This document shows positions 12,487 to 45,710 of a DNA stretch of 48,140 bases, piece by piece. The stretch is from Bacteroidales bacterium. Its GTDB lineage: Bacteria; Bacteroidota; Bacteroidia; Bacteroidales; UBA932. Made by a program: the position numbers and the translations under genes. The stretch lies in assembly GCA_017617655.1 (NCBI GenBank), contig JAFZVU010000049.1:1-48140 (forward strand), given 5' to 3'. Each line of letters starts with the position of its first letter. The stretch's first letter is position 1. The notes under the pieces were generated by a model that was given only the letters and a program-made list of their open reading frames with translations, ran no database searches and was not told where the DNA came from.

Positions 12487-12912
12487 TTAGTCTATTGAAT
12501 CGTACTTCACTACTTCGATGCCTGCGCGGCGCAGCAGGTCCAGCCCGTCGGTGATGCGGTATTCGTCGTGGTAAACGACGCGCTTGATGCCGGCCTGGAT
12601 TATCAGCTTCGCACATTCGATGCAGGGCGAGGCGGTGACATAGAGGGTGGAGCCGTCGCTGCTGTTGCTGCTCTTGGCGACTTTGGTGATGGCGTTGGCC
12701 TCGGCGTGCAGAACGTAGGCTTTGGTAACGCCGTTCTCGTCTTCACACACGTTCTCGAAACCTGAGGGCGTGCCGTTATAGCCGTCGGAGATTATCATCT
12801 TGTCCTTGACGAGGATGGCTCCCACCTGCCTGCGGGCGCAATATGAATTTTTAGCCCAAACCGTCGCCATCTGAAGATAGCTCTTGTCGAATTTTGTCTG
12901 TTTGTCTGTCAT
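12487..12912 (-). CDS. dCMP deaminase (ComEB-type cytidine deaminase fold)
   Basis: Deaminates dCMP to dUMP to feed thymidylate synthesis. Its 141 residues have the zinc site H69-A-E71 and P96-C97-I-E-C100, with E71 the proton shuttle. The N-terminal part KFDKSYLQMATVWAKNSYC and DGYNGTPSGFENVCE are typical of the dCMP deaminase branch rather than of tRNA or cytosine deaminases. It lies 12 bp downstream of the ABC exporter gene and 3 bp upstream of the S41 protease, in a minus-strand operon of otherwise envelope-related genes. Confidence 0.93.
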   Translation of the reverse strand: MTDKQTKFDKSYLQMATVWAKNSYCARRQVGAILVKDKMIISDGYNGTPSGFENVCEDENGVTKAYVLHAEANAITKVAKSSNSSDGSTLYVTASPCIECAKLIIQAGIKRVVYHDEYRITDGLDLLRRAGIEVVKYDSID

Positions 12913-30495: not shown

Positions 30496-32787
30496 CTAAT
30501 CGCTTAGTTTTTTTGCCAAAGGGCTGTCTTGCACGAACACCGGGATGGCCGTGATGTCGGCCGGAACGTCGACGTAGCGGCCTCCCTCATACTTCTCGCC
30601 GGTGCGGAAATCGGTCCATCCGCCTTCGTTCTTCGGGAGGTAGACTCTCCAGTTGCTGACGCCTGCCTCGGTTATGGGGCATACCAGCAGCGACGGTCCG
30701 AACATGAATTCGCAGTCCTGCTTCAGGGCTTCGCTGTCGGCTGGAAAGTCGAAGACCAGCGGGCGCATCATGGTGTAACCCTCCTGCGAAACTTTGGCCG
30801 CGCACTCAAGGATGTAAGGCTGCAGCTTCTCGCGCAGCTTCATCGCATCGGCTATAAGGTTGTACGTCAGCTCGCTGTAGCGCCAGGGTTCTGTCTGGCT
30901 CATATAGCCGTGCACCCTCATGAAGGGCAGGAACACTGCGGTCTGCACCCAGCGAACGAGCCGCTCCTGATATTCCGCCGAAGTGTACTGGTCGCCGGGG
31001 CGGAAGAATCCGCCGGCATCGTAGGTCCACCAGGGCAGTCCGGCCGCCATCTGGCCCAGGCCTCCGGCAATCTGGCGGCGCAGAGTGCCGAAGTCGTTGC
31101 CAACGTCGCCGCTCCAGGTCACCACGCCGTAGCGCTGGATTCCCGTGAAGGCGCTGCGGGTGAGGATGACGGGTTCGTGGTCAGTTATATCTTTCAGACC
31201 CTCGTACATGGTGCGGTTCACCATAAGAGGGTAGACGTTGCGGTAAAGCTCGCCCGGCACCTGGTCCGGACCTACGAGCCTGCCTTCCAGGTCGTCGTTC
31301 TCCGGCTCAGTGGCGTCGAACCACCACGCGTCGATGCCGTAGGGGATGGCAAGGCTGTCGCGGAAGCTCTGTACATAGAATGCCGCTGCGTCAGGCTTGA
31401 AGAAGTCGATCCAGTCCGTGCCGTCGATGTAGTAGCCGCGTTCGTCCAGCTTCTTGCCAAGGGCGGAGTTACGGTCGACCTTAGACCATACTGAAATCAT
31501 GAAGTGTGCTCCCATGTCGTGCAGGGCGCTTGTCAGCGCAGCCGGGTCGGGGTAATGCTCGCGGTCGAACTCCATCGAGTTCCAGCCCGTGTCGCCCCAC
31601 CACTGCCAGTCCTGCACTATTACGTCCAGAGGCAGGCCGCGCTCCTTGAAGCCGGCGGCGTTCTCCAATATCTCGTCCTGGGAATGGTAGCGCTCGCGGC
31701 AGTGGATATATCCGAACATCCAGTCCGCCATTTGCGGCACTGGGCCGGTCAGAGTGCGGTAGGTCGATATCACTTCGTCGGCGCTGCCCGCGAAGACGGT
31801 GTAGTCCAGCGCTGCTGCGACGGGAGAGGCCAGGGTGGTCTCGTCAGAGGCTTTGCGCCAGAACACCTGCGGGTTGTCGCCGCGCACGCCCTCGACGCTC
31901 AGTTCGTGGACTCCGGCGGGCAAGGTGACTATTACAGACGAGGTGGGAGGGAGCCAGGTGTTGGAAACGTCTATTACCGGCTCGCCGTCTATTGCAAGAT
32001 AATGCCTGCGGGCCATCTTCTGCCCCACGTCCAGCAGGAGGGCATATTCTCCTCCTTCAGGTACTTTAAGCGTGCCTTTGAAAGTCCTTGTGAAGCGCAT
32101 CTCACGGCGGTTGCCAGAAGTGCCGGTGGCATTGACGGTCTGACCGGCGCCTTCCTCGGCCGGCTCGAGGCTTATGCTGTTCTCCGCAGGGTTGTAGTCG
32201 GTCAGGCCGTAGTTGTTCCAGAGCAGGCCGTAGCCTTTGCTAGAAAGCACGAAGGGTATCGCAATCTGGGTGTTTACCTGCGTCAGGCGGCGTGTCAGGC
32301 CGCGGATGTCCAGATAGCCGTCCTGGAACTGCCCCGTGCCGTACAGATGCTCGTCCGCAGGCGATGCGAAAGTCTGCGAGACGGCGTACACCGGCACGCC
32401 CTGTACCTCCGAGGGCTTCAGTGAGCGGCCTTTTGGTTTCTCGCTCAGCAGGATGTTGCCCGCAGCGTCAAGGAATGTCAGAGTGCCGTCTTCGCGTGAG
32501 TAGCGCACCGTCATTGCGGCAGTGCTCATCGCTACGCTCTCCGCGTCCTTGCTGACTTTGAATTTCGGGGCGGCCACCTTCTCGGTGTAGACCAGCTCTT
32601 CCGGCAGGGTCTGCCCGCTGGGGATTACCTGCACGCGGACTGCATTGTCATAAAGGGGCTTGAGGACCAGCGTGCCGTCGGCCGTCTTGATGCGGACTGA
32701 ATGGCTCTGGCACGAGCTGAAGGTCAGAGCCGCGGCGCAAAGGGCCAGAGCTGCTGACAGGATGGGCTTGAGGACTGTTGCTTTCAT
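30496..32787 (-). CDS. GH31 glycosidase lipoprotein, probable alpha-xylosidase
   Basis: A 763-residue exported retaining glycosidase. The signal peptide ends in the lipobox F-S-S-C26, so it is membrane-anchored. A PA14-like beta insertion (about 229-312) sits before the TIM barrel, as in the xyloglucan alpha-xylosidase of Bacteroides ovatus. The nucleophile is D491 in AWWFDATEPE and the acid/base D561 in VTWSGD. Alpha-xylosidase is inferred from the PA14 insertion and the AWWFDATEP motif; alpha-glucosidase remains possible. It is divergent from an esterase gene, with the GH2 and GH9 genes further to the right. Confidence 0.85.
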   Translation of the reverse strand: MKATVLKPILSAALALCAAALTFSSCQSHSVRIKTADGTLVLKPLYDNAVRVQVIPSGQTLPEELVYTEKVAAPKFKVSKDAESVAMSTAAMTVRYSREDGTLTFLDAAGNILLSEKPKGRSLKPSEVQGVPVYAVSQTFASPADEHLYGTGQFQDGYLDIRGLTRRLTQVNTQIAIPFVLSSKGYGLLWNNYGLTDYNPAENSISLEPAEEGAGQTVNATGTSGNRREMRFTRTFKGTLKVPEGGEYALLLDVGQKMARRHYLAIDGEPVIDVSNTWLPPTSSVIVTLPAGVHELSVEGVRGDNPQVFWRKASDETTLASPVAAALDYTVFAGSADEVISTYRTLTGPVPQMADWMFGYIHCRERYHSQDEILENAAGFKERGLPLDVIVQDWQWWGDTGWNSMEFDREHYPDPAALTSALHDMGAHFMISVWSKVDRNSALGKKLDERGYYIDGTDWIDFFKPDAAAFYVQSFRDSLAIPYGIDAWWFDATEPENDDLEGRLVGPDQVPGELYRNVYPLMVNRTMYEGLKDITDHEPVILTRSAFTGIQRYGVVTWSGDVGNDFGTLRRQIAGGLGQMAAGLPWWTYDAGGFFRPGDQYTSAEYQERLVRWVQTAVFLPFMRVHGYMSQTEPWRYSELTYNLIADAMKLREKLQPYILECAAKVSQEGYTMMRPLVFDFPADSEALKQDCEFMFGPSLLVCPITEAGVSNWRVYLPKNEGGWTDFRTGEKYEGGRYVDVPADITAIPVFVQDSPLAKKLSD

Positions 32788-32830
32788 GGATGTAAATTTA
32801 CAAAAAAGTGCAAATCACGCTCTCCATGTT

Positions 32831-32838
32831 TATATTTG
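32831..32838 (+). promoter_or_regulatory. Candidate -7 box for the esterase-phosphatase unit
   Basis: TATATTTG is a full TAnnTTTG match 15 nt upstream of the ATG at 32854. It implies a very short leader. Confidence 0.45.
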
Positions 32839-32853
32839 TAGAAAAAAAAGACT

Positions 32854-33753
32854 ATGAACAGTTTCAAGAAAATTCTCCCGGCGCTGGCAGTGCTGCTGCT
32901 CGGCACCGTGCTGACTCTGGCTCAGAATACCCCCCAGACCCCCGTCTACAATTTTCCCAAGCCCGACGTGATGTTCGACCTCTGGCCGGACGGCACTCCG
33001 ACCGATAACGGCCTCACCGGAGAGGAAAAGGACTACGGCAACCACGTCTCGAATGTCACCAAGCCCACTCTGGCCGTGTTCCTGCCTGAGAAGCCCAACG
33101 GCCTGGCTGTGCTCATCTGCCCAGGCGGCGGATATGTCGACGTGTGGGACAAGACCGAGGGTTACGCCAATGCCAGATGGTACACCGACCGCGGCATAGT
33201 CTACGCCGTTGTTAAATACCGCCTCCCCAACAGTCATTACGAAGTGCCGCTGGATGATGTCCACGAGGCAATGCGTGTGCTCTGGGCTCACGCTGACGAG
33301 TATGGCTTCACGAAGCTAGGCATCGGCGGCTGCTCTGCCGGTGGCCACCTCGCCTCGACTGCCGCCACCCACTTCAGCAAGCCCGAGGAACGCCCGGATT
33401 TCCAGATCCTGTTCTATCCTGTAATCTCCATGGACCCTGCCATCACCCATGCCGGCTCTTCGCACTATCTGCTCGGCGACAATCCTCCCAAGGTTCTTCT
33501 TGAGAGCTACAGCAACGAGAAGCAGGTGACCGGCGACACTCCGCCCGCATTCATCATGGCCAATTCTGACGACAGGGTTGTGCCCTGCGAGAACAGCATC
33601 CGCTACTACGAGGCTCTCCGTGCGCACCGCGTTCCCGCCGCCCTCCACATCTATCCCGTCGGTGGCCACGGCTGGGCCGACAACCTTGCCTTCCCTTACC
33701 GCGAAGCCTGGCTCACAGACCTCGGCGTATGGCTCGACAGTTTCGTAGAGTAG
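32854..33753 (+). CDS. Secreted alpha/beta-hydrolase, probable carbohydrate esterase
   Basis: A 299-residue protein with a signal peptide (about 1-23, ending LAQ). Its FDLWPDGTP start and VLICPGGGY oxyanion region are shared with the gene at 41370. The likely triad is S161 in GGCSAGGH, D240 in NSDDRVVP and H272 in GGHGW. Related proteins in polysaccharide loci are acetyl-xylan or acetyl-sugar esterases, so it may remove acetyl groups from a plant polysaccharide; this is inference. It is divergent from the GH31 gene and 11 bp upstream of the phosphatase gene. Confidence 0.85.
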   Translation: MNSFKKILPALAVLLLGTVLTLAQNTPQTPVYNFPKPDVMFDLWPDGTPTDNGLTGEEKDYGNHVSNVTKPTLAVFLPEKPNGLAVLICPGGGYVDVWDKTEGYANARWYTDRGIVYAVVKYRLPNSHYEVPLDDVHEAMRVLWAHADEYGFTKLGIGGCSAGGHLASTAATHFSKPEERPDFQILFYPVISMDPAITHAGSSHYLLGDNPPKVLLESYSNEKQVTGDTPPAFIMANSDDRVVPCENSIRYYEALRAHRVPAALHIYPVGGHGWADNLAFPYREAWLTDLGVWLDSFVE

Positions 33754-33764
33754 TATAGCTGACC

Positions 33765-35819
33765 ATGAAGAAGTTCCCCGTAATAATAGCGCTGGGCGTC
33801 ATAGCGCTTTCCCTGTTGGCAGGCTGCAGGGAGAAGAAGCTATCTATTGACAGAGATGAAGCTACGATCCGTTTCGAGCAGTATCAGGATGCGAGAGACA
33901 TGGACGCATGCTGGGCGCTGATAGATTCTGTCGAACAGGCCGGCATCTGGCCGCCGGAAATGGTCCATTATCATCGCAGCATCGTCTACTACAACTGGGA
34001 CGACCCTGCTGCCGTCGAGGAGGAGCTCCGCAAAGGAATCGAGGCGGGCAAGAAGAACCTTGTCAGCCATTCCTACTTCATCGCCAACTATATGCAGCTT
34101 GCTTCCGACCTGAGGAGCAATGGCGACTATGAAGAAGCCATGAATCTGGCCGGCGAGGCTCTGGACTACATAGAGACATGGAACAAAGAGGGCGTCGACA
34201 CTCACCTCGACCCTACCACCATCCTTTCCCTCAAGCTGACCATCGGCCAGACGCAGGCCAGGATGGGAAATATCGAAGGGGCGAGGAAGACTTTCGAAGA
34301 AGTATGGGAAATGCAGCAGGATCTGATGAAGAAAGTGCCCATAGAGGACTATAATTATTTCTTCACGGAAATATCGCTGGGCATACTGTCGTCCTGTTCA
34401 GATTGTGAATACTATGAAGACTTGCTCCAATGGCTCGATCCGTTCGACCAGGTTTTTGCGCAATGCTCCCAGTACATGGACGAGCTGGGTGTAACCTATT
34501 ATGAACCCATACGTCTCATCTACGAAGTAATCGCTCTGGCCAATACCGGGCATGTGCAGCAGGCCGACGCCTTGTACAGCAAGTTCGCTGATTTGCCGAG
34601 AAGCAGTGATCCCGGGAACATGGGGTATCGTATCAAAGCCCTCCGCAGCCTCGGACGCTATAATGAGGCCGCCCGGTATTTTGAAACGTATATGGACAGT
34701 ATGAAGGATTTGCTGGCGGACGTCAGCCCCGACCTTCTCGTCCACAACTATGCTGTCGGCTATACTTTATTCCGTAAGTCGGGAGAGGATGCCAAAGCTT
34801 TTGCCATGGGTGATTCGCTCGCCGCATATACCGACGTTGCGCTGGATTTCATCCGTGAAAGCAATTCGGCCGAACTGGCCACCATCTATGATACGAAGGG
34901 CAAGGAGACCCAGATTGCTCTGCAGAAAGCCGAGCTGTCGCAGCAGCGGCTCATCGGCACCGGCATCGCTCTGGTGCTGCTGACCGCCTTCTTCCTTGTA
35001 TACACCTGGTATCGCCGCCGCGCCCAGCGCCGTCTGGCCGTCGCCCACACGAAGTTGCAGGAGGCTTACGACCAGCTGGAGGAGACCACTGCGGCCAAGG
35101 AGCGCATAGAGAGCGAGCTGCGCATCGCGCGTGACATCCAGATGTCCATGGTGCCGGGGATCTTCCCGGAGCATGACGGGCTGGACATGTATGCCGAGAT
35201 GACTCCCGCCAAGGAGGTGGGTGGCGACCTGTACGGTTATGTGCTGCAGGGCGACAACCTTTACTTCTGCGTAGGTGACGTAAGCGGAAAAGGTGTGCCC
35301 GCTTCGCTTTTCATGGCCCAGAGCTCGCGCCTCTTCCGCACCCTCGCGGCCGAAAACCTCATGCCCGCCGACATCTCCGTGCGCATGAACAACGCCCTGG
35401 CCGAGAACAATGAGCAGAATATGTTCGTGACCATGTTCATCGGCCTGCTCCACCTGGATTCAGGCCGTCTGGACTTCTGCAACTGCGGCCACAACGCGCC
35501 TGTGCTCGACGGTCAGTTCCTCGGGATGCAGTTCATAAACCAGCCTCTGGGAATCATGGAGGGTCTTCCCTTCATGGGCGAGTCTATCTCCGACATCCGG
35601 GGTAGCCAGCTGCTCGTATACACTGACGGTCTGAACGAGGCCGAGAATACCCGCAACGAGCTCCTGGGCAATGACCGCCTCCTCGAGCTTATGTCCTCAG
35701 CCGCGGCTCTGAACTCGCGCGAAACTATCGCCATGCTGAAGACCGCCGTCGAGAAGCACCGCTCCGGCGCCGACCCCAACGACGACCTCACCCTGATGTG
35801 CCTGCGGCTCGCAAGGTAG
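33765..35819 (+). CDS. Lipoprotein/TPR sensor with cytoplasmic SpoIIE-type PP2C phosphatase
   Basis: A 684-residue signalling protein. The signal peptide ends in the lipobox L-A-G-C21. Residues about 30-380 are helical TPR-like repeats, one membrane segment covers about 396-415, a coiled coil spans 420-455, and a SpoIIE phosphatase domain follows (about 460-684). Metal-binding D488 (VGGDLYG) and D505 (VGDVSGKG) are present, as is the C-terminal DPNDDLTLM. If lipidated at the inner membrane the TPR part faces the periplasm and the phosphatase the cytoplasm. It would dephosphorylate a Ser/Thr target such as an anti-sigma antagonist; none is nearby. It follows the esterase by 11 bp. Confidence 0.88.
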   Translation: MKKFPVIIALGVIALSLLAGCREKKLSIDRDEATIRFEQYQDARDMDACWALIDSVEQAGIWPPEMVHYHRSIVYYNWDDPAAVEEELRKGIEAGKKNLVSHSYFIANYMQLASDLRSNGDYEEAMNLAGEALDYIETWNKEGVDTHLDPTTILSLKLTIGQTQARMGNIEGARKTFEEVWEMQQDLMKKVPIEDYNYFFTEISLGILSSCSDCEYYEDLLQWLDPFDQVFAQCSQYMDELGVTYYEPIRLIYEVIALANTGHVQQADALYSKFADLPRSSDPGNMGYRIKALRSLGRYNEAARYFETYMDSMKDLLADVSPDLLVHNYAVGYTLFRKSGEDAKAFAMGDSLAAYTDVALDFIRESNSAELATIYDTKGKETQIALQKAELSQQRLIGTGIALVLLTAFFLVYTWYRRRAQRRLAVAHTKLQEAYDQLEETTAAKERIESELRIARDIQMSMVPGIFPEHDGLDMYAEMTPAKEVGGDLYGYVLQGDNLYFCVGDVSGKGVPASLFMAQSSRLFRTLAAENLMPADISVRMNNALAENNEQNMFVTMFIGLLHLDSGRLDFCNCGHNAPVLDGQFLGMQFINQPLGIMEGLPFMGESISDIRGSQLLVYTDGLNEAENTRNELLGNDRLLELMSSAAALNSRETIAMLKTAVEKHRSGADPNDDLTLMCLRLAR

Positions 35820-35860
35820 CAGCTTGGCTGGCTGGCTTGTTGTCCGTCTGGCTGGCTATC

Positions 35861-35977
35861 GCCCGTGATTTGCAACTAGCTGACTGCCAGTGCAAAAAAC
35901 ATAAGTCCTACCCTTTGTATCGAGGGGTAGGACTTTACGTTTTTTAATTGGTAGTCAGTTGGTTACGCATCACGCGC
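35861..35977 (+). repeat. MITE-like element, copy 1 (with terminator-like hairpin)
   Basis: Begins GCCCGTGATTTGCAACT (35861-35877), contains the 11-bp stem AAGTCCTACCC/GGGTAGGACTT (35903-35913 with 35925-35935) and ends TTACGCATCACGCGC (35963-35977). A reverse-oriented copy lies at 44893-45007. The ends pair imperfectly as GCCCGTGAT and GCGCGTGAT. The hairpin followed by a T run (35941-35945) could also end the phosphatase transcript. It fills most of the 229-bp gap before ogt; upstream of it is only a TGGC-rich stretch (35821-35856). Confidence 0.75.
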
Positions 35978-36048
35978 AATGTCTGGAATACGGCGCTTGA
36001 TTATCTTCACTCAAACTTGTACCTTTATGCCAGTATCTCGTATGGTTT

Positions 36049-36552
36049 ATGGATTATACCTGGCATTACGATTCTCCTCAGGGCGGAATCACTCTGGCGA
36101 GTGACGGCGAGGCTCTAGTCGGGCTTTGGTTCGACGGTCAGAAATACTTTGCAGGTACGCTGGAAGAGGAGCATGAGGAGAGGTCCCTTCCTGTTTTTGA
36201 CGATGCCTGCCGGTGGCTCGACATCTATTTCAGCGGCACTGCTCCGGATTTCACTCCCCGGCTGAAAATGCGCGTATCGCCATTCCGGAAACGGGTCCTG
36301 GAGATTCTGCTAACGATACCTTTCGGTCACACCATGACCTATGGCGAGATAGCAGCTATGATAGCCAGTGAGAATGGACAGAAACAGATGTCGGCCCAAG
36401 CCGTCGGGGGCGCTGTCGGGCACAATCCCATCGCGCTCATCATCCCTTGTCATCGCGTAGCGGGAGCCGGCGGCAGCCTCACAGGTTATGCCGGAGGAAT
36501 AGACAAGAAAATGCACCTCCTGCAGATGGAGCGCCAGCATTCCGCCACCTAG
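36049..36552 (+). CDS. Methylated-DNA--[protein]-cysteine S-methyltransferase (Ogt-type)
   Basis: Removes alkyl groups from O6-alkylguanine by suicidal transfer. The 167-residue protein has the N-terminal RNase-H-like domain and a C-terminal winged helix with FGHTMTYGEIA and the active-site IIPCHRV, C134 being the acceptor. GSLTGYAGG follows as in the family. The ATG at 36049 gives the usual short N-terminus; another ATG 7 bp upstream is out of frame. It stands alone on the plus strand between two repeat-bearing gaps. Confidence 0.95.
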   Translation: MDYTWHYDSPQGGITLASDGEALVGLWFDGQKYFAGTLEEEHEERSLPVFDDACRWLDIYFSGTAPDFTPRLKMRVSPFRKRVLEILLTIPFGHTMTYGEIAAMIASENGQKQMSAQAVGGAVGHNPIALIIPCHRVAGAGGSLTGYAGGIDKKMHLLQMERQHSAT

Positions 36553-36596
36553 CGCGCCCGGTCCCGGAACAAAATACATCAAGTATCGCTTCAGGT

Positions 36597-36633
36597 GTAC
36601 AAGGTCTGCAAAATTGCGACAGGCCTTGCACGC
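36597..36633. repeat. 37-nt palindromic repeat, unit A
   Basis: Starts GTACAAGGTCTGCA and ends CAGGCCTTGCACGC, giving an imperfect hairpin. Unit B at 36681-36717 has the same length and design. Confidence 0.8.
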
Positions 36634-36680
36634 GGTCTATTTGCAAGCGGTTGAATATTAGCGATTTATGTTTTGGGGCC

Positions 36681-36717
36681 GTACAAGGCCTGCATCATTT
36701 CAGCAGACCTTGTACGC
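36681..36717. repeat. 37-nt palindromic repeat, unit B
   Basis: Starts GTACAAGGCCTGCA and ends CAGACCTTGTACGC. It starts exactly 84 bp after unit A starts. Arms of A and B also pair with each other: GTACAAGGTCTGC of A is the exact complement of GCAGACCTTGTAC of B. The rest of the 224-bp gap (36553-36776) holds nothing else that I recognise. Confidence 0.8.
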
Positions 36718-36776
36718 ATCACAACATACCTTGCCTGCTGAGTGTGATGATAACCCGGAACAGATATCGCTGTCGT

Positions 36777-38567
36777 TTATTGGGAAATAGTCTGGGCGAG
36801 CTTCTCGATGTTGAGGCTACGTGCGGAGGCGTCGACTATGTCCTTATAGACGCCGCCCTTGCGGTAGAGCTCGTCGGGATTGCCGCTCTGCTCGAGATGG
36901 CCTTCCTGCAGGGCATATACCATCTCGCTGTCGATAATCTGGGAGATGGAGTGGGATATGATGATGACGGTGCGGTCTTTCTTGATGGCGTCGATGGCAG
37001 ACTTGATCTGCTCGGTGGCGATGGCATCCAGCGAAGCCGTGGGCTCGTCCAGGAAGATTATCGGAGGGTCCTTGAGGAACATTCTCGCCAGGGCGATGCG
37101 CTGCTGCTGTCCTCCGGAAAGATGGGTGGCAGCTGTCTCGAAGCCTTTCGGCAGAGCCACGATCTGGTCGTAGACACTAGCTTTGCGGGCAGCCTCTTCA
37201 ACTTCCTCGAAGGTCGCATCGGGTTTGCCGTAGCGGATGTTCTCCTCGATACTGCCGTCGAATATATGGTTCTTCTGGAGCACCAGGCCTATGTTCTCCC
37301 TGAGGAAACGGGTATCCCATTCGCGAAGGTCCACCCCGTCCAGGGTGATGCTGCCGCAGTCCGGCTCGTAGAATTTGTCCAGCAGGTTCACGATGGTCGA
37401 CTTGCCGGCGCCGCTCAGCCCTACCAGAGCCGTAATCTTGCCGCTCTCCACCTTCAGTGAAATGTCATACAGAGCCTTTGTTCCGTTGGGGTAGGTGAAG
37501 TCCACTCCCTTCATCTCGAAGTTCCCCTGAACCTTCTCCGGCCGGTAGCTGCCGGTCGGCTCAAGCTCCTCGTCCGCATCCACTATGTCGAAGTAACCTT
37601 CAGCATAGACCAAGGCGTCGTTCAGGTCGTCGAAGATGCGCTGCAGCGAAGTGATCGGGGCCGTGACGTTGGAGAACAGCATGATGTGGTACATTATCTT
37701 ACCGATTGTCATCCCGGGATAGCCGATTAGCACCAGATAAGATGTCAGGATTATGATAAGGACCGTCCCTGTCTGGCTGACGAAGCTTTTCAGAGCGTCG
37801 AACCCGAAAGATGCCCGCCGGATGTTCAGCTGATTGCCGTAGTAGCCTTGCTGTAGTTCGGTCTGCTTGCCCAGTTCAATCTCTTCGCGGTTGAAGGACT
37901 TCACTACGTTCATGCTCTCCAGGATGCTCATGATGCTGCCGCTGCGCCTTTCGTTGAACCCGCGCATATTCTTGCGGGAGCTTTTCAGCTTGCGCCCCTG
38001 AAGCGAGGTAATCCAGAAATAGATGGGCACGATGGCCAGAGCTGTCAGGCCCACATAGATGTTTGCCGCGAAGATGAGCACCAGCGCCAGCACAGAACTG
38101 ACTATCATCGGCAGCAGATTGATGAAGAAATTCTGGATTGTGCGGGAGATGCTGCTGGCACCCTGGTCGATACGGGCCTGAAGCATGCCGGGCGCATTGT
38201 CGCTGCGGGCGAAGAAGGCCATCCGGTATTGGAGGATCCGCTCCACCACCCCAAGGGAAAGCCGCTGGGAGATGTTGATGCGCAGCTTTTCGCCGAAGAT
38301 GCTCTGGCCGAACGAGATGCCGGAGCGCAGGATTTCCTTCCCCAGAAGGACTATGCTGACGATAGTGAGGATCCGCGCGGCCTTGGCCCATGTGAAGTCG
38401 GACGAGCCGACAAGGGCGTTGATAGCATCGACAGTCCGGTCCAGCACGACGGCATTTACCTGGGCGAGCAGGGAGCCGACGAGAGTGAGGGACAGGGTGG
38501 CGACCAGCAGGAGACGGTAGGGTTTGATATACGGAACTATCCTACGGAATAATTGGGCTAAGGTCAT
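36777..38567 (-). CDS. ABC exporter half transporter (MsbA/multidrug-like)
   Basis: A 596-residue permease-ATPase fusion. Six hydrophobic segments lie in about residues 15-310. The ATPase shows Walker A GLSGAGKST (about 381), the signature LSGGQQQRIA (about 481), Walker B IIFLDEPTASLD and the switch His in IISHSIS. Substrate is unknown. It lies 26 bp downstream of a small DUF3784-like protein gene that is itself 13 bp after another small membrane protein gene, so the three are probably one operon. It is only distantly like the exporter at 12925. Confidence 0.9.
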   Translation of the reverse strand: MTLAQLFRRIVPYIKPYRLLLVATLSLTLVGSLLAQVNAVVLDRTVDAINALVGSSDFTWAKAARILTIVSIVLLGKEILRSGISFGQSIFGEKLRINISQRLSLGVVERILQYRMAFFARSDNAPGMLQARIDQGASSISRTIQNFFINLLPMIVSSVLALVLIFAANIYVGLTALAIVPIYFWITSLQGRKLKSSRKNMRGFNERRSGSIMSILESMNVVKSFNREEIELGKQTELQQGYYGNQLNIRRASFGFDALKSFVSQTGTVLIIILTSYLVLIGYPGMTIGKIMYHIMLFSNVTAPITSLQRIFDDLNDALVYAEGYFDIVDADEELEPTGSYRPEKVQGNFEMKGVDFTYPNGTKALYDISLKVESGKITALVGLSGAGKSTIVNLLDKFYEPDCGSITLDGVDLREWDTRFLRENIGLVLQKNHIFDGSIEENIRYGKPDATFEEVEEAARKASVYDQIVALPKGFETAATHLSGGQQQRIALARMFLKDPPIIFLDEPTASLDAIATEQIKSAIDAIKKDRTVIIISHSISQIIDSEMVYALQEGHLEQSGNPDELYRKGGVYKDIVDASARSLNIEKLAQTISQ

Positions 38568-38593
38568 CGGTACACTTAATTGCGGTTTATACC

Positions 38594-38890
38594 CTACTTT
38601 TTCTTGGCCCAGGTGTTACCGAGGAGGATTGCCACGAAGGCCAGAAGGACAGTTATCACGATGAAAGAGACCAGCCCGCTTGTATAATCTTTATAGTTCA
38701 GCAGGAAGCAGGCCGGGGCGAGGAGTATCAGCATCAGTCCGAAGACCAGCCTCAGACGCTTTACGTTGTATTTCTCTTTATCTTTCTTTGATGCGGTGTT
38801 ATAGCCGGCAATCAGATTGTCTCCCTTTCCGGAAAGGATTATTATGCCGAGGACGAGCAGCAGGGCTGCGACGATGATGATGGCTGCCAT
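38594..38890 (-). CDS. Small membrane protein, DUF3784-like
   Basis: A 98-residue protein with three hydrophobic segments (about 3-20, 48-64 and 70-90) and a basic loop between the first two (TASKKDKEKYNVKRLRL). The GYNTASKKDKEKYN motif is typical of DUF3784 proteins, which are common beside ABC transporters in gut bacteria. It is in the middle of a three-gene minus-strand run. Function unknown; it may be an accessory subunit of the exporter, which is inference from position. Confidence 0.75.
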   Translation of the reverse strand: MAAIIIVAALLLVLGIIILSGKGDNLIAGYNTASKKDKEKYNVKRLRLVFGLMLILLAPACFLLNYKDYTSGLVSFIVITVLLAFVAILLGNTWAKKK

Positions 38891-38903
38891 GATGATAATG
38901 TTG

Positions 38904-39233
38904 TTAAGTTAAAACGGCTACGAGGATGAAAGCTATGAGGAATCCCAGGGTTATGATGCCGAACACGATGCCGGCGCCTTTCGCTCCCTCCTTGAATGAT
39001 TTGGTGAGCTGCTCGTCGAGCTGCACATCTTCAATACGATGGCGCTTGAGCATAACGGTGTAGTACACTATAAGCGAGATGGTCAGGGCGAGAAAAGCGG
39101 CGCCCATTATCCACATGAACTTGCTCCCCTCGCTGATGCCCACTATCAGCCAGTTGACGCTCATTGCAATATACAGGGCCATGGGGGCTATCTGGATCCA
39201 GAACTGCCGCCTGGTAATACCTTTCTGTTTCAT
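38904..39233 (-). CDS. Small membrane protein of unknown function
   Basis: A 109-residue protein with three hydrophobic segments (about 13-33, 38-60 and 85-108) and a charged loop KRHRIEDVQLDEQLTKSF. No family was recognised. First gene of the run that leads to the ABC exporter gene; a weak -7-like TATCTTTA lies on the minus strand at 39264-39271. Confidence 0.65.
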   Translation of the reverse strand: MKQKGITRRQFWIQIAPMALYIAMSVNWLIVGISEGSKFMWIMGAAFLALTISLIVYYTVMLKRHRIEDVQLDEQLTKSFKEGAKGAGIVFGIITLGFLIAFILVAVLT

Positions 39234-39293
39234 GATACTTCAGGGAATGCTGTTTACTGAATGTAAAGATACGTGTTTTGAGTGGTTTTTTTG

Positions 39294-39301
39294 TATATTT
39301 G
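39294..39301 (+). promoter_or_regulatory. Candidate -7 box for the GH2-esterase-GH9 operon
   Basis: TATATTTG is a full TAnnTTTG match 30 nt upstream of the GH2 ATG. TTTG motifs lie upstream but at shorter spacing than usual. Confidence 0.45.
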
Positions 39302-39331
39302 ACAATTGTTAAAATGCGCAATACTTACTAT

Positions 39332-41368
39332 ATGAAAAGAATTATATTTCTGGCGGGTCTTTGTGCGGCCCTGCTGCTTTCTGCCTCGGTGGATGCACGC
39401 GAGGTAATCTCCATGAATGAAGCGTGGAACTTCACTCCCACCCGCTCGACAGGCGCCGGACGAGGCGGCTGGGGCGGCTTCGGTCGCGGCGGCGGCCAGC
39501 AGCAGGTGGTAAACCTGCCTCACACCTGGAATGCTGAGGACTTTATGAATGACGGCGGATACCGTCGCGGCTACGGCACCTACTCAAAGCAGTTCGACGT
39601 TCCTGACGAGTACCGCGGCAAACGCGTCTTCCTCCAGTTCGAAGGAGCCGGCTCCATGGCAACCGTCATGGTAAACGGCAGGATCATCGGCGAGCACCGC
39701 GGCCCGTACAATACTTTCACGTTCGAGATTACGAATGACCTTCGCATCGGCACCGTCAACAGCCTGACCGTCATCTGCAACAACGAGCAGACCTTCGACA
39801 TCGCCCCGACTGCCGGCGACTTCAACGTATACGGCGGCCTCTACCGCGACGTCTGGATGATAGTGACCGATGAAGCCTGCATAAGCCCTCTCTACTTCGG
39901 TTCCAACGGCGTGCTGATCTATCAGCCTGTCGTTACGGAGAAGTATGCTGAGGTCCGCGCTGAGATCCACCTTTCCACCGCAACCGACTACAACGGCTGC
40001 GAAGTGTATTTCGCCATTGAAGACGCCGCCGGCAAGGTAGTGGCAGAGCGTGCCTCGACCCTCATCAACAACGACCTCGCAATCTGCGGCCTGGGCGTCG
40101 AGAACCCTCACCTGTGGAACGGCAAGGAAGACCCTTATCTCTATAAGGCAGTTACCGTACTGAAGAAAGACGGCAAGGAGATCGACCGCATAGAGGAGAA
40201 CATCGGCTTCCGCTATTTCTGGGTGGACAAGGACAAAGGCTTCTTCCTCAACGGCAAGCACATCAAGCTCCACGGCGTATGCCGCCACCAGGACTGGGCA
40301 GTTATCGCATCGGCCCTCACCGAGGCTAACCACCTGGCCGACTACGACCTCTTCGACGAGATCGGAGCGAACGCCCTGCGACTGGCCCACTACCCGCAGG
40401 CCCACTTCATGTTCCGCGAAGCTGACCGCAGAGGCTATCTGGTATGGGAGGAAATACCCTTCGTCGCAGGCTATGTGAACTACGAAGGCTTCCGCGACAA
40501 CCTCCGCCTGCAGTTGCGTGAAATGATCATACAGAACTTCAACCACCCCTCTATCGTATTCTGGGGCCTGTTCAATGAAGTTCACGACAATATCGATGCA
40601 ATCGTGGCTGACCTCAACGCCATAGCCCACGAGCTGGATCCCGGCCGTCTGACCACCTGCGCCACCGACCAGGAGCACACCTACATCACCACTACCGACG
40701 GCACCGGCTGGAACAAGTACTTCGGCTGGTACTACGACACCGTGGCCGACTTCGGCCCGTTCCTCGACGACTGGCACGCACGCTTCCCGAACGCCCTGAT
40801 CAGCATCAGCGAGTACGGCGGAGGCGCAGCCCTGTCTGTCCATGTGCCCAAGTACGGCCCGGAGGACGAAGTGGACGTGCGCTCGGTATCCCGCGGCCAC
40901 TGGCACCCTGAGGAGAAGCAGACCTACATCCACATCAACAACTGGAAGACCATCGACGAGCGCGACTATGTATGGGGCTCGTTCCTCTGGAACATGTTCG
41001 ACTTCGGAAGCGGCATGCGTCAGGAAGGCGACACCAACAACCTCAACAACAAAGGCCTCGTGACCCACGACCGCCAGACGAAGAAAGATGCATTCTTCTT
41101 CTACAAGGCCAACTGGAACAAAGCGGCCCAGACCGTGCACCTCTGCTCTAAGCGCTACACCGACCGCGAAGAGGACACCACCGACGTAATAGTGTTCACC
41201 ACCGCCCCGTCAGCCAAGCTGTACATCAACGGCAAGCTGGTCGGCAACGCCAAGACCGACGCATACGCTACTGTCCGCTGGCCTGACGTCAAGCTGAACA
41301 AAGGCGTGAACAACGTAGTCGTAAAGACTGCCCACGGAGAAGATTCAACTGTTTGGAACGTTAAATAA
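39332..41368 (+). CDS. Secreted GH2 glycosidase, probable beta-galactosidase
   Basis: A 678-residue exported enzyme: signal peptide about 1-22, a Gly/Arg-rich insert (about 35-55), the GH2 sugar-binding jellyroll (about 60-200), the Ig-like domain and a TIM barrel from about 300. The acid/base is E416 in WGLFNEVHD and the nucleophile E494 in ISISEYGGG. A C-terminal beta domain covers about 600-678. I took the ATG at 39332, which starts the signal peptide; the frame is open 54 bp upstream. Beta-galactosidase is the usual activity, but beta-glucuronidase or mannosidase cannot be excluded. It ends 1 bp before the esterase gene. Confidence 0.88.
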   Translation: MKRIIFLAGLCAALLLSASVDAREVISMNEAWNFTPTRSTGAGRGGWGGFGRGGGQQQVVNLPHTWNAEDFMNDGGYRRGYGTYSKQFDVPDEYRGKRVFLQFEGAGSMATVMVNGRIIGEHRGPYNTFTFEITNDLRIGTVNSLTVICNNEQTFDIAPTAGDFNVYGGLYRDVWMIVTDEACISPLYFGSNGVLIYQPVVTEKYAEVRAEIHLSTATDYNGCEVYFAIEDAAGKVVAERASTLINNDLAICGLGVENPHLWNGKEDPYLYKAVTVLKKDGKEIDRIEENIGFRYFWVDKDKGFFLNGKHIKLHGVCRHQDWAVIASALTEANHLADYDLFDEIGANALRLAHYPQAHFMFREADRRGYLVWEEIPFVAGYVNYEGFRDNLRLQLREMIIQNFNHPSIVFWGLFNEVHDNIDAIVADLNAIAHELDPGRLTTCATDQEHTYITTTDGTGWNKYFGWYYDTVADFGPFLDDWHARFPNALISISEYGGGAALSVHVPKYGPEDEVDVRSVSRGHWHPEEKQTYIHINNWKTIDERDYVWGSFLWNMFDFGSGMRQEGDTNNLNNKGLVTHDRQTKKDAFFFYKANWNKAAQTVHLCSKRYTDREEDTTDVIVFTTAPSAKLYINGKLVGNAKTDAYATVRWPDVKLNKGVNNVVVKTAHGEDSTVWNVK

Positions 41369-41369
41369 G

Positions 41370-42212
41370 ATGAAAAAGACATTAATCATCACAGCCATGC
41401 TCCTGATGTCAGTAATCGCATCCGGGCAGCAGGTCATCAAGCTCTGGCCCGACGGCGCTCCTAATTCCAACGGCCTGTCCGGCCCCGAGAACGAGATGGA
41501 AGGCGGCCGCATCGGCAACATCAGCGACCCCGAACTGCTGGTATTTCCGGCTGCAGAGCCGAACGGGCTGGCAGTAATAATGTGCCCCGGCGGCGGCTAC
41601 AACTATGTGGCGGCCAAACATGAGGGCACCGATATGGCCGAATGGTTCAACGCCCAGGGCGTCACCTTCGCCGTGCTGAAATACCGCATGCCCAACGGCC
41701 ATGCCGACGTGCCCATCACAGATGCACAGAGAGCCATCACCCTGATGCGCTCCCGTGCCGACGAGTGGGGCATCAAGAAGCTCGGCATCATGGGCGGCTC
41801 TGCCGGCGGCCACCTCGCCGCTACGGCGTCTGTCCACTTCACCTCCCGTACGAGGCCCGACTTCCAGATACTGCTGTATCCTGTGATAACCTTCGAGGGC
41901 CGCGTTACTCCCGGCGGCAAGAACATGCTGTTCGACATGTATCCCGATGAAGAAGAAGTTTATTACTACTGCTGCGAAGAGTTCGTGGCTCCGAACTGCC
42001 CGCCCGCCTTCATCGTGCATAACGAAGACGACAAGACCGTTCCCGTCAGCGACAGCAAGACTTACGCTGAGCGTCTGGAACAATGCGGCGTGCCGGTGAA
42101 ACTCCTCATCTTCCCTGACGGAGGCCACGGATTCGGCTTCCGCGACAGCTATGCCCACAAGGAGGAATGGACTTCCGCCCTCGCCGAGTGGCTCAAGCAG
42201 TTCACTGAATAA
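41370..42212 (+). CDS. Secreted alpha/beta-hydrolase, probable carbohydrate esterase (second copy)
   Basis: A 280-residue paralogue of the esterase at 32854, with a signal peptide (about 1-19) and the same order of motifs: KLWPDGAP, VIMCPGGGYN, then the probable triad S144 (GGSAGGH), D221 (NEDDKTVP) and H253 (GGHGF). It is placed 1 bp after the GH2 gene and 26 bp before the GH9 gene, so it is very likely made together with them. This context fits deacetylation of the polysaccharide that the glycosidases cut. Exact substrate unknown. Confidence 0.87.
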   Translation: MKKTLIITAMLLMSVIASGQQVIKLWPDGAPNSNGLSGPENEMEGGRIGNISDPELLVFPAAEPNGLAVIMCPGGGYNYVAAKHEGTDMAEWFNAQGVTFAVLKYRMPNGHADVPITDAQRAITLMRSRADEWGIKKLGIMGGSAGGHLAATASVHFTSRTRPDFQILLYPVITFEGRVTPGGKNMLFDMYPDEEEVYYYCCEEFVAPNCPPAFIVHNEDDKTVPVSDSKTYAERLEQCGVPVKLLIFPDGGHGFGFRDSYAHKEEWTSALAEWLKQFTE

Positions 42213-42238
42213 CGACAACTATTAATAACTTAACCTAT

Positions 42239-44860
42239 ATGAAACGTCTGTCAATTATGATCATTGCGGTTGTTGCAGCCGCATTGTCTTTTGTAGCCAA
42301 CGCACAGAGCATGAAACTCAACGACCTCGGTTATTACGAGGCCCGTGGCACAAATGTGCTTATGTACAACAACATTTACAACGGTGGTTTTTACGATGAG
42401 AAATTCGCCGGTCTGGAAATCATCCAGCGCGGAGTCCGCATCGCCACCGGCGGCGGCGTCCGTCTGATGAACACCCCCGAGCAGTGGGATATCTTCGGAA
42501 CTGTAAGCCCCCGCAGGATTGATGAAGCCGAGAGCAGCGTCGAAGTGACGCTCGACTATGCCGATTACGGTTTTGCACCCAGGCTCAGGACTGTTCCCAA
42601 GGACAAAGGTATCCTGGTGCAGGTATGGCTTGACAAGCCGGTTCCCGCAGAGCTGGTAGGCAAGGCTGGAATGAACCTAGAGTTCTTCCCCGCAACCTAT
42701 TTCGGACACAACTACCTGGTGGACGGCAAGGGCCGCATCCTTCCCAAATACCCGATGCACGACACTGAAATGCACCCGGTATCCGAGAAAATCACCCAGT
42801 ATTTCGGCGAATCAACTTTCGATGACCGCGGACGCGGTGACTTCCCCGTTGCTCTGCCGATGTCTACCGGACATCAGATCGTAATGGCCCCGGAAGATGA
42901 TGCACTGCGCGTAGGTATTACCTCAGACCTCGAAATCAGCATCTATGACGGCCGCCATCTGGCCCAGAACGGTATGTTCGTGCTCCGCTCTCTCCTTCCG
43001 GCCGGCAAGACCGGCAAGGTGCTGGAGTGGTATATGGAGACCAGCATCTCCAAGGACTGGATCCGTCCCGCCAACATCGGCTTCTCTCAGGTCGGCTATT
43101 CTCCCGCCCAGAAGAAGGTGGCCGTTGCCGAGCTTGACAAGAACGACACTCCCGCCGCTACCGCAAGGCTTCTGAAGGTCAACCCGGACGGCAGCAAGAG
43201 CGTGGCCAAGGTAATCCCCGCCAAGATCTGGGGAGAATATCACCGCCGCTACAACTATGTACAGCTTGATTTCTCTGACGTACGCGAGCCCGGCCTCTAC
43301 GCCATAGACTATCAGGGAGTCGAGACAAACGCATTCCCCATCGATGTCAATATCTACAGCGACAAGTGGCATCCTTCAATGGACATCTCGCTGGTGGTCA
43401 ACATGGACCACATGGAGGTGAACGAGGCCTACCGCATCTGGCACGGCCGCGCCAACATGGATGACGCCCTCCAGGCTCCCGCCAATGTCCGCCTGCACGA
43501 CGGCTACTATCAGGGCGACGAGACCAACGACCAATGGCAGCCCATGCAGCACATCCCCGGCCTGGCAATCGGCGGCTGGGTTGACGCAGGTGACTATGAC
43601 ATCCAGGCCAACTCAGTGCTCACCACAACTCAGGACCTCGCCTACATCTGGCGCGAGTTCCAGCCTATGCGCGACCAGACCCTGATCGACGAGGTGACAC
43701 AGTATGCCGACATCCACGTTCCTGACGGAGTTCCTGACAACGTACAGCTTATCATGCACGGAACTCTCAACATCAACGCCCAGATAGAGAACATAGGTTT
43801 CGTGGCTCAGGTTATCGGCCAGCCCGACATGCACCACTACCACCACCTCGGCGACGCCATGACCCTGACCGACGGCAAGATCTATGACCCGACGCTGAAA
43901 CCCTATGAGGTACGCGGCGACCGCTCAGGCACCCTGGACGACCGTTTCGTCTTCACAAGCCGTTTCAGCCCCGCAGGCACCATGTCGGACATCGTATCTC
44001 TGGCTGCTGCTTACCCGGCACTGAAGGAATACTATCCTGAGGAGGCCGAGCGCTCGCTTAAGAATGCGATAATGCTTTGGGACAAATATTTCGAGGCAGC
44101 AGCTCCGCAGGCTAACGCCAACGCCTTCGGAAACTTCGGTGGCGGCGGACGCCGTATGGGTGGCGGAGACCCGCGCATCAATGCAGCTATCGAGCTCTGG
44201 ATCGCTACAGGCGACAAGAAGTACAAAGACTTCTTCCTCCCGCTTATCGAGGAACAGCTGAATGCCCAGCCAGAAGAAATTCGCGCTAACCCGAACGTTT
44301 CCAACGGAATGTTCATGAGCGCATTCATGGGCGGCCCGAACCTCACCAACGCCCTGAAGATTTATCCTTACATGGACAAGAAATTCCAGGACAAGGTGAA
44401 ATCTCTGGTTCCGGCCTATGTCGACATGATCACCCGCGCCGGCAAAGACAATCCTTACGGCGTAGCCATCACCGGTTCAAGCTGGGCCGGCAATGCATCT
44501 GTGATCAACAGCGCATACAACTGCTACAAGATCTGGAAGTACTTCCCGGATATGATCGACCCTGAGTATGTCCTCGCCGGCCTGAACTACATCTTCGGCT
44601 GCCACCCGGACAGCAACGTATCGTTCGTTACCGGTGTGGGTGTCAACACCAAGAAGGTGGCCTACAGCGCCAACCGCGCCGACTACTCTACCATCCCCGG
44701 CGGTATCGTTCCCGGCCTGCTGGTTAAGGAAGATTTCTTCGAGAACAAAGACGACTATCCGTTCCACTGGGGCGAGAACGAGTGCTGCATCAACACCGCT
44801 CCGCAGTACGTTCTCCTCTGCCTCGCCTGCGACGAGGTCGCCCGCGCCATCAACAAATAG
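42239..44860 (+). CDS. Secreted GH9 glycoside hydrolase (endoglucanase-like)
   Basis: An 873-residue exported enzyme: signal peptide about 1-22 (ANAQ), an N-terminal beta region (about 25-280), an Ig-like CelD-N domain (about 285-380) and an (alpha/alpha)6 barrel. The catalytic-base aspartates are in GWVDAGDYD (D449 and D452), and the acid in ENECCINTAPQY (E848). A Gly/Arg-rich loop with GGGGRRMGGG lies about 628-642. GH9 enzymes cut beta-1,4-glucans such as cellulose or xyloglucan. The extra N-terminal domain makes it longer than most. It is the last gene of the GH2-esterase-GH9 unit. Confidence 0.87.
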   Translation: MKRLSIMIIAVVAAALSFVANAQSMKLNDLGYYEARGTNVLMYNNIYNGGFYDEKFAGLEIIQRGVRIATGGGVRLMNTPEQWDIFGTVSPRRIDEAESSVEVTLDYADYGFAPRLRTVPKDKGILVQVWLDKPVPAELVGKAGMNLEFFPATYFGHNYLVDGKGRILPKYPMHDTEMHPVSEKITQYFGESTFDDRGRGDFPVALPMSTGHQIVMAPEDDALRVGITSDLEISIYDGRHLAQNGMFVLRSLLPAGKTGKVLEWYMETSISKDWIRPANIGFSQVGYSPAQKKVAVAELDKNDTPAATARLLKVNPDGSKSVAKVIPAKIWGEYHRRYNYVQLDFSDVREPGLYAIDYQGVETNAFPIDVNIYSDKWHPSMDISLVVNMDHMEVNEAYRIWHGRANMDDALQAPANVRLHDGYYQGDETNDQWQPMQHIPGLAIGGWVDAGDYDIQANSVLTTTQDLAYIWREFQPMRDQTLIDEVTQYADIHVPDGVPDNVQLIMHGTLNINAQIENIGFVAQVIGQPDMHHYHHLGDAMTLTDGKIYDPTLKPYEVRGDRSGTLDDRFVFTSRFSPAGTMSDIVSLAAAYPALKEYYPEEAERSLKNAIMLWDKYFEAAAPQANANAFGNFGGGGRRMGGGDPRINAAIELWIATGDKKYKDFFLPLIEEQLNAQPEEIRANPNVSNGMFMSAFMGGPNLTNALKIYPYMDKKFQDKVKSLVPAYVDMITRAGKDNPYGVAITGSSWAGNASVINSAYNCYKIWKYFPDMIDPEYVLAGLNYIFGCHPDSNVSFVTGVGVNTKKVAYSANRADYSTIPGGIVPGLLVKEDFFENKDDYPFHWGENECCINTAPQYVLLCLACDEVARAINK

Positions 44861-44892
44861 GTGCGCCCCGTGCGCGCCCTGAGCGTGTGCGC

Positions 44893-45007
44893 GTGCGTGA
44901 TTCATAAGGCGCTGAATATAAGCGCTTAATAGCAAGTCCTACCCTTCATGTCGAGGGGTAGGACTTTGCTTATTTATCAGGAATTAAGCGAGTTGCAAAT
45001 CACGGGC
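44893..45007 (-). repeat. MITE-like element, copy 2 (inverted)
   Basis: Reverse copy of the element at 35861-35977: the minus strand starts with the same 17 bases (45007 back to 44991), then the same 11-bp stem (44934-44944 with 44956-44966), and ends TTATGAATCACGCAC (44907-44893). It follows the GH9 gene and fills the core of the 241-bp gap before the nitroreductase gene. The hairpin may end the GH9 transcript. Confidence 0.75.
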
Positions 45008-45051
45008 AGGAGGGCAGGATAATCTAGAGTTGATATCGTGCCAAAAACCAT

Positions 45052-45059
45052 TAACTTTA
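45052..45059 (+). promoter_or_regulatory. Candidate -7 box for the nitroreductase gene
   Basis: TAACTTTA matches 7 of 8 positions of TAnnTTTG, 42 nt before the ATG, with TTGA at 45030-45033 as a poor -33. Confidence 0.3.
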
Positions 45060-45101
45060 CGGAAACGCCGGGCAAAGAAAACGACAATAATATCAGATAC
45101 C

Positions 45102-45710
45102 ATGAAACAAACCGCTATCCTTTATGCAGTCATCGCGCTGCTGGTGCTGTCCGGATGCTCAGGCAGCACCAACTCATCCGCAACCCTTGACGAGCTGTTC
45201 CAGACAAGACGAAGTATCAGGGCATATCTTCCCGACAAGACTATCAGCGAAGACCAGGTGCGCGAACTCCTGGCCGCCACCCAGAACGCTCCCTCATGGG
45301 CAAACTACCAGCCCAGCAAATACTATGTCGCCATCAGCAAGGAAGCCCATGATGCCGTCTGTGAATATGTCGGCTTCAACAAGGAGCGAGTTGCGAATGC
45401 TCCCGTGCTACTGGTTTCTACCTATGAGCGTGGCAAGTCGGGCTATCTCCAGGGGCAGCAGACCAACGAGCTGTCTGACGAGTGGGGCGCCCATGACAAC
45501 GGCCTGAGCGACGCCTACCTGATCCTAAAGGCCCGTGACATGGGGTTTGATACGCTTATTATGGGCACACGCGACAGCGACGGCCTGCGCGAACTCTTCG
45601 ACATCCCTGAGAATGAGACCGTCATGGCCGTCATCGCCCTCGGCTACAGGGCCGAAGAGCCCCGCATGCCCGGCCACAAGCCGCTGGATGAATTCGCCAG
45701 ATTCTTCTGA
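45102..45710 (+). CDS. Nitroreductase-family lipoprotein
   Basis: A 202-residue FMN-type oxidoreductase with an export signal ending in the lipobox L-S-G-C19. The nitroreductase domain starts at TRRSIRAY (the FMN phosphate-binding arginines), has AATQNAPSWANYQP, and ends with ETVMAVIALGYRAEEPRMPGH-type sequence (IALGYRAEEP here). The ATG at 45102 starts the signal peptide; 24 further codons upstream look like leader. An FMN enzyme on the membrane outside the cytoplasm would need exported cofactor. Substrate unknown. It stands alone after the inverted repeat element. Confidence 0.88.
   Translation: MKQTAILYAVIALLVLSGCSGSTNSSATLDELFQTRRSIRAYLPDKTISEDQVRELLAATQNAPSWANYQPSKYYVAISKEAHDAVCEYVGFNKERVANAPVLLVSTYERGKSGYLQGQQTNELSDEWGAHDNGLSDAYLILKARDMGFDTLIMGTRDSDGLRELFDIPENETVMAVIALGYRAEEPRMPGHKPLDEFARFF

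Follow-up and report, generated by a model that had tools for sequence, protein, structure and literature searches.

A fixed-length double-dyad repeat of Bacteroidales genomes probably works like the REPINs of a RAYT transposase

Background

The described systems closest to the repeat reported here join a transposase of the RAYT family to palindromic DNA. Single-stranded REPs are processed in vitro by TnpA-REP, which has coevolved with them (Corneloup 2021, PMC8266576). Long inverted repeats on either side of RAYT genes, some of them self-complementary and forming moderately abundant families, have also been reported (Di Nocera 2013, PMC3733652); in the same source the GTAG-type repeats of RAYTs are said to be known chiefly from gamma-Proteobacteria, and the motif GGGGWSAS is found in some terminal inverted repeats (TIRs) only and is not a requirement. 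Among the TnpA-Y1 proteins (Quentin 2018, PMC6006769), those of group 2.1 have a C-terminal helix-turn-helix-like domain, and groups 2.4 and 2.6 occur in Bacteroidetes, the 2.6 genes having atypical structures on their flanks, of which copies exist in the genome. The motifs and median lengths listed there are NHVH/YIELNP and 238 amino acids (aa) for 2.1, NH[IFV]H/YIxNNP and 194 aa for 2.4, and NH[LIV]H/YIH[QN]NP and 179 aa for 2.6. Here we analysed a stretch of 48,140 nucleotides (the window), contig C4 of a Bacteroidales genome of 2.2 Mb in 88 contigs and 84% complete (GCA_017617655.1, hereafter G000), in which two copies of a dyad element of about 109 bp bracket an interval of 8.9 kb.

Our reading is that these two blocks are probably non-autonomous repeats that work like the REPINs of a Bacteroidales RAYT, an enzyme of the Y1/HUH type; its binding, cleavage and transposition of the repeats are proposed from sequence comparisons. 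The window copies would be old copies of a mobile repeat family of nearly fixed length. We write "work like", and do not count the element among the canonical REPs, since it lacks their GT[AG]G foot.

Two copies in the window and a dispersed family

Trimmed to the symmetrical ends CGTGAT...ATCACG, copy 1 (35864..35974, plus strand, 111 bp) lies between a SpoIIE-type phosphatase gene and ogt, and copy 2 (44896..45004, minus strand, 109 bp) between the GH9 (glycoside hydrolase family 9) and nitroreductase genes. An earlier note on this DNA had placed two hairpin blocks of about 116 bp here, and both are present. They have in common a 17-base end, GCCCGTGATTTGCAACT (35861-35877 on the plus strand; from 45007 downwards on the minus strand), and the 11-bp arms AAGTCCTACCC/GGGTAGGACTT (35903-35913/35925-35935 in copy 1, 44934-44944/44956-44966 in copy 2), which form the central stem-loops at 35903..35935 (plus) and 44934..44966 (minus). 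In copy 1 the left outer end, CGTGATTTGCAA (35864..35875, plus), faces the right outer end (35963..35974, minus). The folding z-scores of copies 1 and 2 were -10.98 and -4.85 as RNA and -8.07 and -6.25 as DNA. A covariance model built from 21 copies scored copy 1 at 93.7 bits on the plus and 87.6 on the minus strand, and copy 2 at 107.6 on the minus and 91.4 on the plus strand; these values are high by construction, because both copies belong to the training set.

The copies had been described as inverted, a reading favoured by the 17-base end and the model scores. Comparison of whole half-elements, however, gave 58 matches of 100 for the inverted against 54 for the same orientation, and the central-hairpin loops of both copies point the same way on the plus strand. 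"Inverted" is therefore weakly defined for this pair, as orientation is for any copy, because the element is nearly symmetrical. As judged by eye, the direction of the central-hairpin loop (35913-35925 and 44944-44956 in the window, and in other G000 copies) does not always match the adjoining arm type, as if the hairpin could turn independently of the arms.

The blocks belong to a real, dispersed family, as the earlier note had supposed, and not to a chance resemblance. The exact core hairpin pattern occurred at seven places in G000 and at none in the reversed control, and blastn with copy 1 and its flanks found further copies in G000, G187 and G202. The covariance model returned 30 rows for G000, which correspond to 15 places each listed on both strands; 13 of these copies are 109 bp long, one is 110 bp and one (copy 1 of the window) 111 bp. 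Exact matches to the core are uncommon and occur in 2 of 199 family genomes, one of them G000. The architecture was found by the model in 17 of the 26 genomes of the genus, again with G000 counted, and G102 gave at least 44 rows, or about 22 places. Genomes negative by the model are not proven empty, because the model leans towards G000-like ends; G200 was negative, yet a flanking dyad was found there in the dyad scan beside RAYT genes. Named carriers are the Bacteroidales metagenome-assembled genomes (MAGs) RGIG7559, RGIG7857 and RGIG7615 (water-buffalo omasum or reticulum), RGIG3539 (goat rumen), RUG11933 and RUG11957. A contig search gave 17 stretches, of which 11 were judged to have the architecture and six to be chance hairpins; copy 1 matched no plasmid, and the core pattern no viral contig.

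Two elements on another G000 contig (C27; L099:10607-10715 and 12798-12906) lie about 2.2 kb apart and are near-identical in one half and the central hairpin, their other halves being unlike, a pattern suggesting half-element exchange or conversion. A second dispersed repeat of about 70-160 bp and 78-94% identity lies a few hundred bases from several elements; it was seen in the flanks of L168 (G000:C1), L166 (G000:C23), L169 (G000:C30) and L179 (G202:C97).

Anatomy and covariation of the element

The whole element, about 109 bp long, is made of two mirror-image half-elements of about 50 nt at fixed spacing. Each half runs from an end (9-12 nt) through TAA, 3 nt, a CTGATTATCAG-like motif and a spacer, often with TTA, to half of the central stem, and the outer end is self-complementary across the element. 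Ends and stems vary between species, with pairs of CGTGATTTGTAA/AAGTCCTACCC in G000, CGTGGCACC/GTCCCTTGCG in G169 and GCTGAAATGTAA/AAGTCACCCT in G014, yet they largely pair inside each copy. The ends are mostly CGTGA or CGTGT in G000 and GTGG in some congeners.

Among the 30 half-elements of G000, mean pairwise identity was 0.80 for the end, 0.77 for the central stem, 0.52 for the arm motif and only 0.31 and 0.38 for the spacers. The claim that the sequence between the blocks is hardly conserved was thus mostly right. Since the spacers have diverged and yet only 2 of the 15 copies depart from 109 bp, the comparison suggests that selection acts on the spacing.

Covariation was assessed in 33 chosen elements (set A5). 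The outer and central stems were paired at 89.6%, compared with 62.6% after shuffling, and 191 double-change cells were counted, compared with 59.6 in shuffled and 32-42 in slid alignments; double changes occurred at 21 of the 23 pairs. The arms did not covary with each other (54.1% paired, 54.4% shuffled). A four-helix cloverleaf was considered and rejected, as the CTGA/TCAG mini-hairpins taken alone were without covariation (61.8% paired, 64.4% shuffled). Because neither the mini-hairpins nor the arms covary, the arm motif is to be seen as conserved sequence and not as a shown helix.

A RAYT class flanked by the repeat

In RUG11933, two copies bracket a 312-aa open reading frame (ORF; L014:868-1806, minus strand) that matches Pfam Y1_Tnp at 6.8e-10. 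Two copies likewise bracket a gene of the same class at L137, L140, L141, L159, L163 and L146 in congeners, L141 and L159 being one unit in two genomes. The bracketing copies have the same orientation in six of the seven pairs compared, the exception (L140) being undecided; an inverted arrangement around the RUG11933 gene was rejected when a recount showed the same orientation. Proteins of the class are about 310 aa long and carry the motifs DH[IL]H (NHIH in one member) and Y[LI][YF]NNP. All ten members scanned matched Pfam Y1_Tnp, and all ten NCBIfam REP_Tyr_transpos, the one member viewed in full scoring 48.8 for the latter, under the cut-off of 80. The class profile matches solved IS200-type transposases, the best being 2xm3 (3e-4), which we take to be ISDra2 TnpA. 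Judged by motifs and profiles, the enzyme flanked by the repeat in relatives is a RAYT, a Y1/HUH single-strand DNA transposase.

The association is with this class and hardly with paralogous Y1 genes. Dyads were found near the gene ends on 40 of 69 sides in the RAYT class, compared with 2 of 38 sides of paralogous Y1 genes (21 loci; Fisher 2e-8), and in 2 of 360 random windows from six loci. When counted by locus (n=35), the RAYT class had a dyad on both sides in 12 cases, on one side in 16 and on neither in seven. At E<=1e-40 the class was present in 21 of the 179 family genomes sampled and in 5 of 25 genera, and flanking dyads of similar length also occur beside its members outside the genus of the window.

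We propose that folding of the outer ends and the central stem would take place in single-stranded DNA, as on the lagging strand, and that the cognate RAYT would recognise the folded ends and stem, cleave at the ends and disperse copies. The near-palindromic copies could in addition promote rearrangement. Recoded ends and stems combined with a persisting arm motif and spacing are what is expected if enzyme and element coevolve.

A structured RNA or a bidirectional terminator family, which the earlier note had also offered, is very unlikely as the main identity of the repeat. Strong folding of both copies and compensatory changes in the stems would suit such a family, as would the position of both window copies downstream of plus-strand genes, where they pass a lax terminator scan. 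The window, however, gave 0 Rfam matches at gathering score; five below-threshold matches at a relaxed E-value, the best to mir-4041 (0.02 on one strand, 0.03 on the other), were rejected. A run of five or more T adjoins the central stem on only 5 of the 30 strands of the 15 G000 copies. One G202 copy lies between divergent genes in their promoter region, a G169 copy lies past a separate terminator-like hairpin (by eye), and transposase genes are flanked by copies.

Mobility and loss

A G169 copy beside a putative groEL (L123) has a counterpart in G205, where one side carries 2.6 kb extra, and the element is absent at the colinear site in G113 and G091. Presence and absence at one colinear locus is thus seen between relatives, though not cleanly (see below). 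Other short repeats in L123 (about 1684-1788 and 766-806) match many places in G091, G113, G169 and G205. G169 also holds, about 5 kb from one RAYT-flanking element, a further copy of it at 95% identity. For the copy on G169:C57, a search for an empty site found a left flank that matches G113 to about 10 nt inside the element, and G091 partly, and no right flank. The RAYT units of G169:C57 and G205:C26 are 97% identical over 1523 bp and their flanks differ; clean transposition of this unit was considered and rejected, as the homology overruns the elements by about 20 bp and about 170 bp.

Loss may have left a trace in the window itself. Between est1 and the GH31 gene lies an element-end remnant, GAGCGTGATTTGCA (32809..32822, minus strand); the orthologous site of G202 holds a complete copy of 109 bp, which suggests that the window element was lost by deletion.

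The name MITE (miniature inverted-repeat transposable element) used in the earlier note is apt as far as it means a non-autonomous mobile repeat, which is genus-wide and, in relatives, flanks RAYT genes; its classical sense is doubtful here. We find it hardly credible that the repeat is a MITE of a DDE transposon, with TIRs cut as double-stranded DNA, target-site duplication and an incidental internal hairpin: the self-complementary ends and dispersed copies would be shared by such an element, but the flanking enzyme is Y1/HUH and not DDE, the central stem is constrained about as much as the ends, and no target-site duplication is visible by eye at seven RAYT units.

Weighing the RAYT-repeat reading

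Several observations weigh against a repeat moved by this RAYT class. The G113 and G091 sites differ from the filled locus by more than the element, the rest of the spacer included, and no clean empty site was found among the relatives compared. The gap between est1 and GH31 in the window, tried as such a site, was rejected because an element end is kept there and it looks like a deletion remnant. Inspection by eye of the flanks of the seven RAYT units disclosed no target-site duplication, and in G000 the canonical GT[AG]G foot is lacking. The 33 elements used for covariation came from a model already holding these pairs, or from dyad scans, and lean towards pairing; the dyad score cut-off of 16 was fixed once previous scans had been made, and many of the loci had already served in defining the architecture. 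L193 (G175), a class member with a good score, was positive on neither side, with only a weak model match (E 0.01).

The dyad covariation, moreover, fits folding of single-stranded DNA and a dimer-bound inverted repeat alike and cannot separate the two. A double-stranded site for a dimeric host protein (a nucleoid, recombination or replication factor), with the RAYT as a hitchhiker, would explain why the dyad spacing is retained in diverged copies and the palindromic arm motif genus-wide without covariation, but it is the least probable explanation, as the sites of a host factor would not usually have ends and stems that are rewritten from one congener to the next, and as the repeat accompanies a single RAYT class and seldom the paralogues.

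A further point against the RAYT-repeat reading is that G000 (in its 84% complete assembly), G187 and G202 carry elements, yet no full-length member of the class was found in them; their best matches (5.1e-11, 5.4e-11 and 1.8e-6, respectively) are in the range of paralogues. Gaps in the MAGs may account for this. As no cognate RAYT was found in G000, its copies look orphaned, and those of the window lineage are probably relics unless the gene sits in a region that the assembly lacks. In G000, single element words (one GTCCTACC and three end words) are all that occurs around the first four Y1 genes, and L110 is barely over the dyad cut-off on one side. G000 has kept other Y1/RAYT-like genes (L108, L109, L110, L111 and L103:4033-5013); the four read closely show motifs such as YVIMNP, YVQMNC, YVVRNA and YTVKNA and no clear flanking element pair, and some of these genes may be domesticated.

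Gene order and the 8.9-kb interval

The interval between the copies (35975..44895) holds ogt, an ABC transporter, two small ORFs, GH2, an alpha/beta hydrolase and GH9, and is inverted relative to G153 and G014. The order in the window is GH31(-) est1(+) SpoIIE(+) copy 1 ogt(+) ABC(-) two small ORFs(-) GH2(+) est2(+) GH9(+) copy 2 nitroreductase(+), and that in G153 and G014 is GH31(-) est1(+) GH9(-) est2(-) GH2(-) ABC(+), with the nitroreductase gene between GH2 and ABC in G014; the stretches compared in these two genomes had no model match. The earlier note's suggestion that the segment could flip gains support here, since flipping the interval in silico restores the core order GH31-est1-GH9-est2-GH2-ABC of both relatives; a past inversion is therefore likely, its cause being a matter of conjecture. 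In RGIG7615 the ogt-to-est1 interval, also between two copies, is opposite to that of the window, the orientation of the pair there being undefined (48 against 48 of 82). Because G134 and G181 show still other orders, the ancestral order is left unsettled. The whole block of GH31, GH2, GH9 and hydrolase genes (30496-45710) is scrambled between congeners far past the element sites.

The element next to the ogt upstream region has a different partner in each of three genomes: SpoIIE (G000), nitroreductase (G187) and GH9 (G202). On the G202 contig the match to that upstream region was limited to 79 bp, and no ogt gene was found. Between G000:C82 and G187:C34 the whole element is retained and the DNA past one end is switched. 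Breakpoints fell at elements in 4 of 10 cases, compared with 0.78 expected (binomial P 0.005), an enrichment that is suggestive only, the counts and lengths having been read by hand on contigs picked for holding elements. A strong link is opposed by the colinearity of several elements between species (C27a, C27b, C82 with G202, and C87), by the C15 element, which sits within an inversion whose breakpoints are at other places, and by the many breakpoints of the region that lack an element. That the RAYT elements actively drive the shuffling of gene order, with the enzyme cutting element ends and joining them to other sites, is a doubtful, rather unlikely proposal. Under it, whole elements would retain one neighbour and exchange the other, as with the three partners of the ogt-side element, and the recoded ends and stems would amount to a code from which the specificity of the transposase could be read.

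Under the REPIN-like reading, one Bacteroidales RAYT class, with several members from ruminants, would go with an unusually rigid element whose stems are rewritten from species to species. Such a natural series of recoded elements makes it directly testable how a single-strand transposase reads its repeat, and the elements are a possible cause of local gene-order instability in these genomes.

Comparison with known systems

A search of titles and abstract openings, with subscription papers and supplements outside its reach, found no description of the 109-bp element. As in the REPtrons and REPINs (PMC6006769, PMC8266576), a Y1/HUH RAYT gene is accompanied by flanking palindromic repeats and dispersed genomic copies, and the sequence pattern is consistent with enzyme-repeat coevolution. 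REPs, however, are 20-40 bp long, whereas the element here is one nearly invariant double dyad of 108-109 bp. It also differs in lacking a GT[AG]G foot in G000, in its CTGATTATCAG-like arm motif, in a RAYT of about 310 aa and in flanking copies of the same orientation in six of seven bracketing pairs.

With the TIRtrons (TIRYT; PMC3733652) the system shares tyrosine transposase genes with long flanking repeats, some self-complementary. The repeat lies on both sides of the gene at 12 of 35 loci, but the flanking copies are mostly dyads in the same orientation, and GGGGWSAS is present in 0 of 33 (A5) and 0 of 36 elements; a recoded double dyad of fixed length is not described in the section of that paper on TIRtrons. 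From TnpA-Y1 groups 2.1, 2.4 and 2.6 the class is set apart by the motifs and lengths listed for them (here DH[IL]H/Y[LI][YF]NNP and about 310 aa), though it may be identical with an unlisted member. The kind of element is known, and the variant appears, as far as literature searches reach, to be new.

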